From the NCBI GenBank assembly GCA_014729085.1, contig WJKM01000016.1, positions 1 through 36,597 on the forward strand: 36,597 bases of DNA, written 5' to 3'. The notes beneath the pieces were generated by a model. It saw only the letters and a program-made list of their open reading frames with translations, searched no databases and was not told where the DNA came from. The position numbers and the translations under genes are program-made. The stretch's first letter is position 1. Every line of letters starts with the position of its first letter. Positions 2,746 to 8,344 of this stretch are shown piece by piece. This DNA is from Candidatus Dojkabacteria bacterium. GTDB taxonomy: Bacteria; Patescibacteriota; Dojkabacteria; B142; WJKM01.

Positions 2746-3525
2746 TTATTCTGAAGTAAATTTCGCTCCAACAAAATTATAGTACTCAACACCTGAGGGT
2801 TGGCTCTGCCCACCAGCAATTCGTTCGAGAATATCAGGTGATATTGGCGGAGGATTTTTAATATTATGTAAAAGAGTTGTGGGATCAACAACTGTTGGTA
2901 CAGCTATTTCTACCCCATTAATTGTTTTTACATGAAAATCCTGACCTGTTTCGACTGGATGTAAAGGATCATATAAATTTGTACCATAACCTATTAATGC
3001 AAGAGGACCATCTTCTCTACCTGTATAATAAGCCTTGTAGCCGTCTACTGGCCCTGTATTTGGAAGTTTAAAGACAACTGAACGCTCGGGTTGGTGTTCT
3101 TCTAATTCTTGATAACGATGTAGTGTATCAGGTTCTTGTCCACGAAATCCTAGGTTGCCTTTACTTATATGTTCCATTCTTTTAATTACCCCATCAACCC
3201 CTACTACTACGCCTACAGCTGGAAGTATCCCGGATTCTCCTGCACTATCGGGAAGTGGATAAGATCTAAGTTTATAATCATCTGACCACCAAGGTTTTTC
3301 GGTTGGTCGGAACAAACATGTTTCTACTTCTGTTCTCCCATCTCTGAATCTATGTCTATCAATTTCATATTCTTGGGTTCTTGAATGATTTTCAGTTCCC
3401 AGCGTAGCGTTTATTGTCTCTATGGGCCAATCTCCAAATAGCCATGGGGGAGTAATAGCAAATCTAGGCTCAACACCGGGAATAGTTAATTCTTGTAAAT
3501 TTGGGGGGCATGATAAATTCTCCAT
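2746..3525 (-). CDS. Hypothetical protein, lysine-poor, no recognised family
   Basis: 259-aa uninterrupted ORF, ATG start with AGGA upstream; co-directional with the next three genes. Confidence 0.7.
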   Translation of the reverse strand: MENLSCPPNLQELTIPGVEPRFAITPPWLFGDWPIETINATLGTENHSRTQEYEIDRHRFRDGRTEVETCLFRPTEKPWWSDDYKLRSYPLPDSAGESGILPAVGVVVGVDGVIKRMEHISKGNLGFRGQEPDTLHRYQELEEHQPERSVVFKLPNTGPVDGYKAYYTGREDGPLALIGYGTNLYDPLHPVETGQDFHVKTINGVEIAVPTVVDPTTLLHNIKNPPPISPDILERIAGGQSQPSGVEYYNFVGAKFTSE

Positions 3526-3594: not shown

Positions 3595-4926
3595 TTAACC
3601 TAGCAGACTTTCCAATAAAAATCTATGTTTATGTACAAATTCATAAAGTCCATTTTTCATAATATGTTTGGCAGCGGCGAGATTGTGACCTTTTGTATCA
3701 TCAAAAGGGAGCCCAATTGATAAACCTACTCCGGCAGCTCTTATTGCAATAGTTCCAGATTCACTGTCTTCAAACCCTATTACATATTTAAATTCTTTCT
3801 GAGGTATCCCAAGTTTATACAAGGCTATGCTATAGAGATCTCTGTGAGGCTTTAGTCTAATCTCATGCGAGTCATCCGCAGTTACAACAACATCATAAAA
3901 GCTATTGTAACTTGAAAATATTTTTAAGGCTTTTTGTTTTACTTTAGAGCTAACATTCCAATGTTTAATGTCTGAATTTATTTTTCTAAAAATTTCAGTT
4001 AAAACAATATCTGCCTCATAAAATATTGAAGAAGTAACAAGCCCAATTTTTACAGGGTTATCTTGAAAATACTTGCCCAGTCTTTTCAGTACTGATTTTT
4101 CCTCACTATTTTTTCCAAAATATTCAGCCTCTTCTCCAAGTACTCCTTTTATTAATGGCAGGAATGTAGAAATGTAGTTCATAGGTTTAATTAATGCCTT
4201 CCCAGCCGTTAATTTTGTAGACAACTCTTGAGACTTTCCATTTGAAATTTGTTTTAGGATTTGATGGTAGTTTGCATAGTAAATATCAATAGCAGCCTTA
4301 ACTTTATATTCAAATCTATTTAGGTTGATTTTCCCCATATTTTTCAGGCATTTTATTATAATTGATTTAGGATTTTTAAATTTTGAAATATCTTGACCAA
4401 TTATATTTTCTAGAATTTGATAAGTACCTGTATTTTTCGAATTTGCTATAACCTCATTTTTTCTTTTTTGGTCCGCACTGTTTTTTACTGTCCATAAAAC
4501 AGCTTCTATATATTTTTTTATAAATTCTTTGGTGTCTATATCTTCTTGGTATTTATTTATGAGATACTCAACATGTTTGGTAGTACTGTTTCCAATTATA
4601 TTTGGATAATCCTTTTTCTGATCTAATTTTTCAATATTATGGTTAGTTATTAACCTAATCATCTCTGCAAGGGAATATAGACACAAGGTTTCTGTCGTAG
4701 TTGTTGTGCCATCCATATCAGTGAGAATAGCGCAAATTTTTTTCAGTGGAATTTTTGCTTGTGCCAAAGGGTATATTTCAAATTTTGGATATACACCTGA
4801 AGGATTTTGTACAATAGCAAACTCGGAGGTTTGATATAGATTATTTGCTATATTTTGCTTTAGAGTTTTAGTGATAGCATTTTTAAGGTCTTTATTTTGA
4901 AGCTTATCCAACCCAATAATTTTCAT
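3595..4926 (-). CDS. HAD-superfamily hydrolase (beta-phosphoglucomutase-like) with large cap/insert
   Basis: Motif I 'LTDMDGTTTTTE', motif II 'GLVTSS', motif III 'KPHRDLY', motif IV 'GFEDSESG' in canonical order. Confidence 0.85.
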   Translation of the reverse strand: MKIIGLDKLQNKDLKNAITKTLKQNIANNLYQTSEFAIVQNPSGVYPKFEIYPLAQAKIPLKKICAILTDMDGTTTTTETLCLYSLAEMIRLITNHNIEKLDQKKDYPNIIGNSTTKHVEYLINKYQEDIDTKEFIKKYIEAVLWTVKNSADQKRKNEVIANSKNTGTYQILENIIGQDISKFKNPKSIIIKCLKNMGKINLNRFEYKVKAAIDIYYANYHQILKQISNGKSQELSTKLTAGKALIKPMNYISTFLPLIKGVLGEEAEYFGKNSEEKSVLKRLGKYFQDNPVKIGLVTSSIFYEADIVLTEIFRKINSDIKHWNVSSKVKQKALKIFSSYNSFYDVVVTADDSHEIRLKPHRDLYSIALYKLGIPQKEFKYVIGFEDSESGTIAIRAAGVGLSIGLPFDDTKGHNLAAAKHIMKNGLYEFVHKHRFLLESLLG

Positions 4927-4974: not shown

Positions 4975-5715
4975 TTACAATCGATTAAAAGTTTCTGTGA
5001 ATGCATCTCGTGTTTTTTGATGGTCGATTAATGTATAGTCAAGATCTACACCAAAAAAAGTTCCAGGTGCAGTACGTATATCATCCAAACTCTGGACAGG
5101 TTGTATAAAGGGTGGCAGATCAGCATGAATACCTTTACGATCTATCAAGAATAGTTGAAAAGGTATTTCATCTTTTAAAACCTCTGCTGCCATTTCTAGA
5201 TTGCTAGGCCGATCTTCTACAATGGCAATTTGTTCAAATCCGTATTCAGGTAATATTTGAGTTAGAGGTTCCAATGTTTGGGTTTTAGCTACTCCTCCGA
5301 TTACTGGGTTAAAGCCCATTACAGCAAGTTCGTCTGTCCAGGAACTCCCTGTTAGATCTCTTCTTTGTCTATCTAGTAAAGTTTGCCAATTTGTTGCATT
5401 GAATTTATCGACTTGGTATCCAGACATAGGACCAAGAGTAAAAGCTGGATCTAGTTCACCTTGGGTCCATATTGCAAAATTAATATCAGGTTGAGTTATA
5501 AGCTGTTGTACAAATGGTAAGGAATCCGAGTAAGGAAAAACTTGAGGGTGTTGAAAGATATCCAAGGCTTGCGATTCAGGTATTCGCCCCTTGCTTTTCT
5601 CTGCAATGAGTTGTGCAGCCCGTGCCGGTATAAATGCTCCATCATAAGCGGATGTAACTTGTCTGTATATATCAGGGAAATAAATTTGTCCAGTTGGTAT
5701 GCTTAAGTTTTCCAT
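4975..5715 (-). CDS. HAD-superfamily hydrolase with C-terminal motif I (candidate circular permutation)
   Basis: Motif II-like 'AIWTQGE', motif III-like 'GGVAKTQTLEPL', motif IV 'AIVEDRPSN' precede 'FFGVDLDYTLIDHQKTRDAF' (motif I DxDxT) at the C-terminus; ATG directly abuts the upstream TAA stop. Confidence 0.8.
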   Translation of the reverse strand: MENLSIPTGQIYFPDIYRQVTSAYDGAFIPARAAQLIAEKSKGRIPESQALDIFQHPQVFPYSDSLPFVQQLITQPDINFAIWTQGELDPAFTLGPMSGYQVDKFNATNWQTLLDRQRRDLTGSSWTDELAVMGFNPVIGGVAKTQTLEPLTQILPEYGFEQIAIVEDRPSNLEMAAEVLKDEIPFQLFLIDRKGIHADLPPFIQPVQSLDDIRTAPGTFFGVDLDYTLIDHQKTRDAFTETFNRL

Positions 5716-6840
5716 TTATAGAGTATCAAAATGAAAATCTAAATTACAAAGTGCCTGATTTAATAAATCTGAGTTTAGTGTCTTTGTACCTGGTATTCCA
5801 GCAGCTGCTCCTCCAATAGCTCCTGCAGCAATTAAAGCGGATTCAGGTTCTATTCCAAGTTGATCGGCCAGACCTATTGCTGTAATTACAGCATCGCCAC
5901 ATCCAGAAGGATATAAGGGAGGGGTATTCCCAGTAAAAGATGGAGAGTGTAGTATTTCTCCGTTATTTTGTCTCCAGAATATTCCATCCTGATCTAGTTT
6001 AAATACTGCATTCGTGCCAGGTAAAATTCTATCTAATCTTTGGTACGCTAATTTAATCTGTTCTGCTAAAGCAACAGGATCTTCCATGCTTAAATCTACT
6101 TCTAAACCTTCCATTGTTTCGTTTCTATTTGGAAATAAAGTCATCCCGGATATAGGACTATATTTATTAAATTTACCACGCGGATCAACCCAGATTGATC
6201 TTTGTGCGTTTTCATTTGTCCCAATAGCTTGTAACACTTGTGGTGTCACTGTGCCTCTGCCATAATCACTGATAGTTAATGGAGCTGAATGTTCAGATAA
6301 TACAGGTTGGACTTGTTGAAGCAAGGCATCAAAATATTCTGGAGAATGCCCTGAGCCCCATTTCTTTTGATCGTCTGTTCTTATAATCGATCCGTCAGGA
6401 CCTATTATACGGGTTTTCATTACAATTGGTTGGTCTGGGTTAAATATGATTCCATCCTGATGTACATGCGGAGGTAGAGAACTAAGTAGATCAACAATTG
6501 GAGCTTGGAGCCCCTTTGGAGAATTTCCGACAACAGAAAATGCATGTACTTGTCCATAATTATTTGCTAATCCACTGAGAACATTCCCTCCTCCTCCAAG
6601 ACACCAATCCATTGGAGATTCGACAAGAAAGTTTGGACCACCTTCCCTGCATCGCCCTACATGTCTTCCCCATGCAAAGCCATCTGTTATTATATCTCCC
6701 AGAAAGTTCATTTCATATCCTCTTTCGCTTGGTGGTTTTAATTGTTCAGCCTGCATTGCACATATAGCTTCACGTCCCCCTATGAAACTTTGAGCTTCTT
6801 TAGTATGAATAATTCCAGGTAATTGTGTCAGTTCTTGCAT
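5716..6840 (-). CDS. PfkB/ribokinase-family carbohydrate kinase, resembling the HldE/RfaE heptose kinase domain
   Basis: 'GGGGNVLSGLANNYG', 'TISDYGRGTV', 'WVDPRGKFNKY...TLFPNRNET', 'YPSGCGDAVITAIGLA' motifs. Confidence 0.8.
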   Translation of the reverse strand: MQELTQLPGIIHTKEAQSFIGGREAICAMQAEQLKPPSERGYEMNFLGDIITDGFAWGRHVGRCREGGPNFLVESPMDWCLGGGGNVLSGLANNYGQVHAFSVVGNSPKGLQAPIVDLLSSLPPHVHQDGIIFNPDQPIVMKTRIIGPDGSIIRTDDQKKWGSGHSPEYFDALLQQVQPVLSEHSAPLTISDYGRGTVTPQVLQAIGTNENAQRSIWVDPRGKFNKYSPISGMTLFPNRNETMEGLEVDLSMEDPVALAEQIKLAYQRLDRILPGTNAVFKLDQDGIFWRQNNGEILHSPSFTGNTPPLYPSGCGDAVITAIGLADQLGIEPESALIAAGAIGGAAAGIPGTKTLNSDLLNQALCNLDFHFDTL

Positions 6841-7051: not shown

Positions 7052-8344
7052 ATGATATTTACAAAGTATATAGAATCCAAATATTCAAAAAACTATAGGT
7101 CTGATATTGCAAAAAGATTAACAAAATTAATCAAAAATCGTCACGCCATTGAATTAATAGGTATGAAAAGAGTGGGTATTGCTAATTTTCTCCGATTTTA
7201 TCTATATAACGAAAACTGCAGAAAACATTATTTTGGAGAAAGCTCTTCGAAATTATTTATTCCTATTGATTTTGCTGAATTAGTTGAGCGTAAGCAGATC
7301 TATGTTTGGATTTCAATATTGCAAAGGATACTGGATCAGGTTATTTCTTCAGAACAGATCCCCGCAGATATTAAAAAAGAAGTTACCATGCTTTGCGAAA
7401 AATCATTGAAGGACAAAGAAATATTTGTAACTTATGACTCGATTCTTAAATCTTTACAAATGGTGTCTGAATTAGGTATCCATTCCGTCCTGTTTCTTAT
7501 TAGGTTTGATAGAATTTTGGATGTTCTGTCTCCTGATTTTTTTACTAACATGAAAAGTATTTCGGAAAGTACGTCAAATTATGTAACCCCTATTTTTACA
7601 ACTTACCGCTCTCTACAGGATCTATGCTCAGAAACTTTTTCTGAAAGTACAATGAATGTATATACGCACAAGATTTTTTTCAAGCCGGTTGGAAAGAAAG
7701 ATTTTAAGGAATTTTTTAAAAAAACAAAATATGGTTTAAAAATGGATAATGATGTCATAAATTATATTTATGATCAAATTGGCGGGTATATACATTATGC
7801 TTATTTACTTTTAACTATATTAAAAGAAAAATATTCGACAGAAACAATAAATAAATCCCATGTAGAAAAAATTTTAGTTGAAGATAGAAGAATAATTATT
7901 CAGTCCGAAGAAATCTATGATTCTTTGACCCATATTGAAAAAAATGTCCTCATAGATATCGTTAAAAAGAAGAAGGTTGATAAAGCAATGAAATTAAAAT
8001 CTATCTATCTTTGGAATGTAGGAATCTTAGATAAAGAAAACAAGATTTTTTCAGAAGTCTTTAAAAAATATCTGCTGAAAGAAACTAAAAGTTCGAAATC
8101 TGAAGAATTAGCTTTTACTAAAAAAGAACATTTACTCTATAAGTTTCTTTTAAGTAATAAAAACGAAATATGCACACGTCTGGAAATTATAAAAAATGTA
8201 TGGCCGGAATGTACTGGCTTTGGAGTAACAGACTGGACCATAGACAGTTTAATTTCCAGGCTTCGCAAAAAAATGAAGGCAATGAATTCAAAATACAAAA
8301 TTAATACAGTTAGAACCAGGGGGTTTAAATTAGTGAAAATTTAA
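7052..8344 (+). CDS. AAA/STAND-like ATPase domain (degenerate P-loop) fused to a C-terminal OmpR-type winged-helix domain
   Basis: 'ELIGMKRVGIANFLRF' resembles Walker A but lacks GKS/T; 'SVLFLIRFDRIL' Walker-B-like; C-terminus 'FTKKEHLLYKFLLSNKNEICTRLEIIKNVWP...TIDSLISRLRKKM...INTVRTRGFKLV' is Trans_reg_C-like. Confidence 0.7.
   Translation: MIFTKYIESKYSKNYRSDIAKRLTKLIKNRHAIELIGMKRVGIANFLRFYLYNENCRKHYFGESSSKLFIPIDFAELVERKQIYVWISILQRILDQVISSEQIPADIKKEVTMLCEKSLKDKEIFVTYDSILKSLQMVSELGIHSVLFLIRFDRILDVLSPDFFTNMKSISESTSNYVTPIFTTYRSLQDLCSETFSESTMNVYTHKIFFKPVGKKDFKEFFKKTKYGLKMDNDVINYIYDQIGGYIHYAYLLLTILKEKYSTETINKSHVEKILVEDRRIIIQSEEIYDSLTHIEKNVLIDIVKKKKVDKAMKLKSIYLWNVGILDKENKIFSEVFKKYLLKETKSSKSEELAFTKKEHLLYKFLLSNKNEICTRLEIIKNVWPECTGFGVTDWTIDSLISRLRKKMKAMNSKYKINTVRTRGFKLVKI

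Follow-up and report, generated by a model that had tools for sequence, protein, structure and literature searches.

Analysis of the window, the whole stretch of 36,597 nucleotides at the start of a 103.7-kb contig (genome size 1.6 Mb), revealed an ORF of 246 aa in which the four motif types of the HAD phosphatases are found in the order II-III-IV-I, with the DxDxT motif near the C-terminus. Our leading reading, to which we assign a probability of roughly 0.5, is that the product of this ORF is a highly divergent C1-cap HAD phosphatase that underwent circular permutation in nature. The ORF and its motif arrangement are real, and membership of the HAD superfamily is plausible but unproven, the evidence being suggestive rather than proof. 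The coordinates assigned to it by the initial annotation (4975–5715) were right, the gene itself lying on the minus strand. The small genome, relatives of 0.5–1.6 Mb, and the ribosomal gene content fit a member of the Patescibacteria. The candidate and the two genes adjoining it are as follows:

4975–5715, minus strand: candidate circularly permuted HAD protein, 246 aa (residues 1–246 correspond to 5715–4978; ATG at 5715, stop at 4977–4975).
5716–6840, minus strand: PfkB-family kinase, HldE1/RfaE domain I-like, 374 aa (TIGR02198, E 5.9e-27; GxGD motif conserved).
3595–4926, minus strand: separate canonical HAD gene, 443 aa (TDMDGT motif I; PF00702, E 3.3e-06; PF13419, E 9e-06).

Within the candidate, the following segments were distinguished:

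5536–5715, minus strand: residues 1–60, putative major part of a C1-type cap, reaching the helix that precedes strand S2 and placed between motif I and motif II when the sequence is read as a circle.
5458–5481, minus strand: residues 79–86, NFAIWTQG, proposed strand S2 and motif II (T84), from the sequence and with a strand in the partial model.
5278–5298, minus strand: residues 140–146, GGVAKTQ, motif III (K144), 24 residues upstream of the Asp of motif IV (D168).
5200–5232, minus strand: residues 162–172, QIAIVEDRPSN, proposed strand S4 and motif IV (E167, D168), from a MAFFT alignment with 36 HAD motif III-IV fragments and with a strand in both models.
5131–5160, minus strand: residues 186–195, FQLFLIDRKG, proposed strand S5 (compare FTIYLDRK in L011, a canonical HAD of the same genome).
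5077–5109, minus strand: residues 203–213, FIQPVQSLDDI, HAD-like C-terminal element (compare FQTISSLKEL at the end of L011), with a strand and a short helix predicted.
5059–5076, minus strand: residues 214–219, RTAPGT, putative linker between the old C-terminus and the old N-terminus (the best rotation of 246 is 219).
5023–5058, minus strand: residues 220–231, FFGVDLDYTLID, proposed strand S1 and motif I (D224 as putative nucleophile, D226 as putative acid/base, T228), from hhalign and a weak NCBIfam match.
4978–5022, minus strand: residues 232–246, HQKTRDAFTETFNRL, putative first cap helix and end of the chain, a helix in both models at low confidence.

The motif residues follow one another as T84 (II), K144 (III), E167-D168 (IV) and D224-x-D226-x-T228 (I), the last of them near the C-terminus; the linear order I-II-III-IV is absent, and the order read, II-III-IV-I, gives no linear match. 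All the segments from which a permutation had originally been proposed were present in the order quoted, namely NFAIWTQGE at residues 79–87, GGVAKTQ at 140–146, QIAIVEDRPSN at 162–172, and TFFGVDLDYTLIDHQKTRDAFTETFNRL, followed by the stop codon, at 219–246. Motif I, DxDx(T/V), corresponds to FFGVDLDYTL (residues 220–229), where a strand is predicted at low confidence, and the Ser/Thr of motif II stands at the end of the proposed S2 (NFAIWT84), this being a weak motif present in 90% of shuffles. A reading of IVEDRPSNLEMA as a CheY-like response regulator was ruled out, as the next strand comes too early for that fold.

A single motif carries little weight (strict motif I and strict motif IV were found in 0.15% and 0.28% of same-composition shuffles, respectively), and all four were therefore required together, in circular order and with spacings seen in HADs. 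Read circularly, the candidate showed spacings of 106 (I-II), 84 (II-IV), and 24 (K-IV) residues, all three within the ranges (61–128, 54–103, and 23–28) of the 19 out of 37 canonical HADs from its own and related genomes that pass the pattern linearly. The four-motif circular pattern with HAD-like spacing appeared in 57 of 100,000 shuffles and in 3 of 1,312 windows drawn from real non-HAD proteins, an apparently homologous pair among them, against 0 of 1,312 for the linear order; these rates are optimistic, as the motif patterns were written after the candidate sequence had been seen. The circular pattern is improbable by chance, at about 1e-3 per protein, and not impossible. Among the 2,298 ORFs of the loci examined, no other one had a convincing motif I in its last 60 residues.

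These rates bear on the alternative that the candidate is an orphan alpha/beta (Rossmann-like) protein outside the HAD superfamily, whose DLDYTLID and IVEDRPSN are chance resemblances. We consider this unlikely, but by no means far-fetched: Rossmann-like folds often have acidic residues after a strand, and a pattern expected by chance at about 1e-3 per protein was here chosen by eye among many proteins, whereas the presence of four motifs at the right circular spacing argues for a HAD, as do the HAD-like S5 and end elements (LFLIDRK and PVQSLDDI).

A rotation test, in which all 246 rotations were aligned globally to a 37-sequence HAD profile, gave its best score at rotation 219, starting with FFGVDLDYT at residue 220 (−11.2, versus −32.0 in the native order), with a second peak of about equal score near 186–189. 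The maximum was reached by none of 500 shuffles of the candidate, and when canonical HADs were permuted likewise and left out one at a time, the true cut was recovered to within about 25 residues, in most cases within 10. The raw score was reached by 65 of 350 real non-HAD windows and, after correction for composition by comparison with their own shuffles, by 32 of 160 real non-HAD proteins, and true HADs scored from 56 to 210 in the scan versus −11 for the candidate. The position of the peak supports the permutation hypothesis, whereas its height does not. Accordingly divided is its bearing on the non-HAD alternative, which is favoured by the many real non-HAD proteins that reach the same score and disfavoured by the fall of the best rotation at the predicted point.

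No significant match to Pfam or PHROGs was detected for the candidate in either native or rotated order, and NCBIfam returned sub-threshold matches only. The rotated N-part aligned weakly with the motif I segment of the HAD-IG 5'-nucleotidases (TIGR02244, E 0.16, not significant), the only NCBIfam HAD model listed for it, which describes proteins that, unlike the candidate, are larger (343 profile positions) and of canonical order. A PDB sequence search with the candidate yielded nothing significant. With hhalign against a HAD profile, the tail of the candidate aligned to motif I (P 0.002), the best match of its core was the motif III-IV region (P 0.18, which by itself is not significant), and shuffles seldom scored as high as the whole sequence, whereas the scores of short motif HMMs stayed at background level. 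No profile search gives statistical significance to the HAD homology of the candidate, which again favours a protein from outside the superfamily.

Homologues of the candidate were found neither elsewhere in its own genome nor in 86 genomes of the class, 380 genomes sampled from the phylum, 353 genomes of another class plus 13 more genomes, or viral contigs, phages, and plasmids, and pattern scanning across 85,462 species genomes, which detects close relatives only, revealed none either. Low-scoring matches (L002 to L005, L028, and L029) were rejected as homologues, corresponding to other proteins, non-coding frames, or low-complexity sequence.

Compared with the C1-capped HADs of subfamily I (PF13419 HAD_2, PF00702 Hydrolase), the candidate shares the four motif types and the circular spacings, as well as a I-II segment of the size of a C1 cap and HAD-like end elements such as those of L011, but its motif I lies near the C-terminus instead of at the N-terminus and its similarity falls below every database threshold. 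If the protein is a circularly permuted HAD, S5 and the SLDDI element would lead up to the old C-terminus, which the short RTAPGT linker would join to the old N-terminal S1, and the new termini would have opened inside the cap, after the first cap helix; the C1 cap, interrupted by these new termini, would then consist of residues 232–246 followed by residues 1 to about 60. The C-terminus of canonical HADs is close to the N-terminal end of S1, both at the end of the sheet away from the active site, so a short cis linker would be feasible. This weighs on a further explanation, by which the candidate is HAD-like but functional only when domain-swapped into an oligomer, each chain completing the sheet of the next with its C-terminal S1. 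The same motif order and the shortness of the linker (RTAPGT, about 6 residues) would fit such an arrangement; nevertheless, with a cis connection feasible and nothing that specifically favours an oligomer, we regard it as very improbable.

Folded as a single permuted chain, the protein would still hold S1 between S4 and S2, in the sheet order 54123 described for the HAD Rossmannoid fold, in which a squiggle and a flap follow S1 (PMC8069645), and the usual HAD active site would be formed by D224, D226, T84, K144, and E167/D168. Following the HAD mechanism (PMC8069645), D224 would form the phospho-aspartate and D226 would act as acid/base, while T84 and K144 would stabilise the intermediate and E167/D168 would hold Mg2+. 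The substrate would probably be a small phosphate ester linked to the upstream sugar kinase, which is our best guess.

AlphaFold2 on the single candidate sequence produced a poor model (mean pLDDT 41.6, pTM 0.30), and a second one, for residues 60–246 with rows of HAD motif III-IV fragments added, was better and still weak (mean pLDDT 56.2, pTM 0.49). The latter showed strands at S2, S4, S5, the PVQS element, and S1, with helices where expected and alternating helices and strands over S4-S5-S1, but it carries little weight, as the added HAD rows bias it towards a HAD. Both models are too weak to place S1 between S4 and S2. Foldseek gave only non-significant matches to other folds for both models, mostly DHFR; a DHFR-type fold was rejected, the match reflecting a generic strand-SLDD-strand pattern. 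That the best of these non-significant fold matches are other alpha/beta enzymes is a further point in favour of the non-HAD alternative.

The genetic context lends support to a HAD. The upstream kinase, encoded by 5716–6840, scored 94.6 bits against TIGR02198, below the curated cut-off of 345, and by its sequence it is a divergent HldE1/RfaE1-like member of the PfkB family. Its TAA abuts the ATG of the candidate, in frame (window 5713–5718), where a single base change would produce a kinase-phosphatase fusion. Read-through of this TAA into a kinase-HAD fusion was considered as well, and it would give no N-terminal motif I. In four out of four patescibacterial relatives of the kinase (L023 to L026), a gene for a canonical GmhB-type HAD phosphatase was found directly downstream on the same strand, in the same slot as the candidate; unlike the latter, these phosphatases are 176–181 aa long, easily recognised, and canonical in order, with an N-terminal DRDGT or DRDGV. 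A HAD beside this kinase type was detected by a simple motif test in 3 of 75 loci, mostly from other phyla, and is uncommon outside Patescibacteria. The adjoining sugar kinase, whose relatives carry a HAD in that place, thus speaks against a non-HAD protein. Taken with the results above, the motif order, the circular spacings, the best rotation, and the operon slot agree with the permutation as initially claimed, whereas the HAD match is not significant, no homologue in the collections searched shows the order to be conserved, and the structural models are too weak to back it.

On the other side of the candidate, the initial annotation had stated that no second HAD copy follows the stop. This was wrong, as the HAD gene running from 4926 to 3595 (PF00702/PF13419) begins 48 bp downstream of it. 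This gene is complete and K-rich, with a K/R ratio of 6.1 versus 0.64 for the candidate, and because it has its own TDMDGT motif I besides this composition, it is neither a continuation nor the missing rest of the candidate ORF, nor a tandem remnant of it. A reading of the candidate tail as part of the downstream gene was ruled out on the same two grounds.

The proximity of this gene is nonetheless one of the points that would fit a decaying or inactive HAD remnant, whose N-terminal motif I was lost and in which tandem trimming, recombination, or misassembly placed the motif I of another HAD at the C-terminus. The candidate is, in addition, an orphan known from a single uncorroborated assembly, and HAD-fusion ORFs occur in genomes of the same class. 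However, the ORF is intact and its codon composition is even from end to end (GC3 0.20–0.27), it contains exactly one set of motifs in 246 aa, the length of one HAD domain, its spacing to the downstream gene is normal and its coupling to the kinase tight, all of which makes a remnant improbable. The fusion ORFs encode two HADs in 450–461 aa and were detected in three genomes of the class (L187, at G010:C1 near 432936–434864; G018:C137:322–1566; and G024:C99:18509–19753), a third HAD gene adjoining the two-HAD ORF in G010. They are plausible intermediates of a permutation and indicate that a duplication route to it was available (PMC3320104); duplication and fusion followed by trimming would be the simplest path to a circularly permuted HAD.

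Among hydrolase superfamilies, that of the HAD proteins is one of the most abundant, and its annotation by motif order presumes an N-terminal nucleophile. We know of no circular permutation previously described in this superfamily, and no circularly permuted HAD phosphatase was found in the open-access literature searched. The fuller proposal, that the candidate is a functional permuted HAD, coupled to a sugar kinase in a patescibacterium, with DxDxT near the C-terminus and the termini inside the C1 cap, and the first of its kind in the superfamily, is put forward tentatively, at somewhat less than even odds. If true, S1 can come last in a HAD chain, the protein would allow ideas on how HADs fold and how their caps evolve to be tested on a natural case, and other permuted HADs may hide among "hypothetical proteins", going unrecognised because linear profiles miss them. 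Natural circular permutations are known in saposin/swaposin and in DNA methyltransferases (PMC3320104), and the rearrangement proposed here would be of the same type, also with plausible duplication intermediates.

Finally, the candidate, the kinase at 5716–6840, and an orphan ORF at 2746–3525 showed a common composition, with K/R ratios of 0.64–0.79 and 39–40% GC, rich in R and P and poor in K. The correctly framed neighbours measured had K/R ratios of 1.6 or more and 27–37% GC, with a GC3 similar to that of the three genes. Composition thus suggests that the three correspond to an acquired gene set with adapted third codon positions, and they may have been acquired jointly and since ameliorated; the K-rich HAD gene at 3595–4926 sits between members of this K-poor set. 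The orphan ORF, on the minus strand, encodes 259 aa without a match in Pfam, NCBIfam, or PHROGs and with a single doubtful one (E 0.007) in 323 genomes of the phylum; its product starts with MENLS, as does the candidate (MENLSIPTG and MENLSCPPN). Further along the window, positions 7052–8344 encode a protein of 430 aa that ends in a Trans_reg_C DNA-binding domain and whose N-terminal part reaches the threshold of no Pfam family; a 33%-identical homologue of the protein was found in a genome of the same order (G004).
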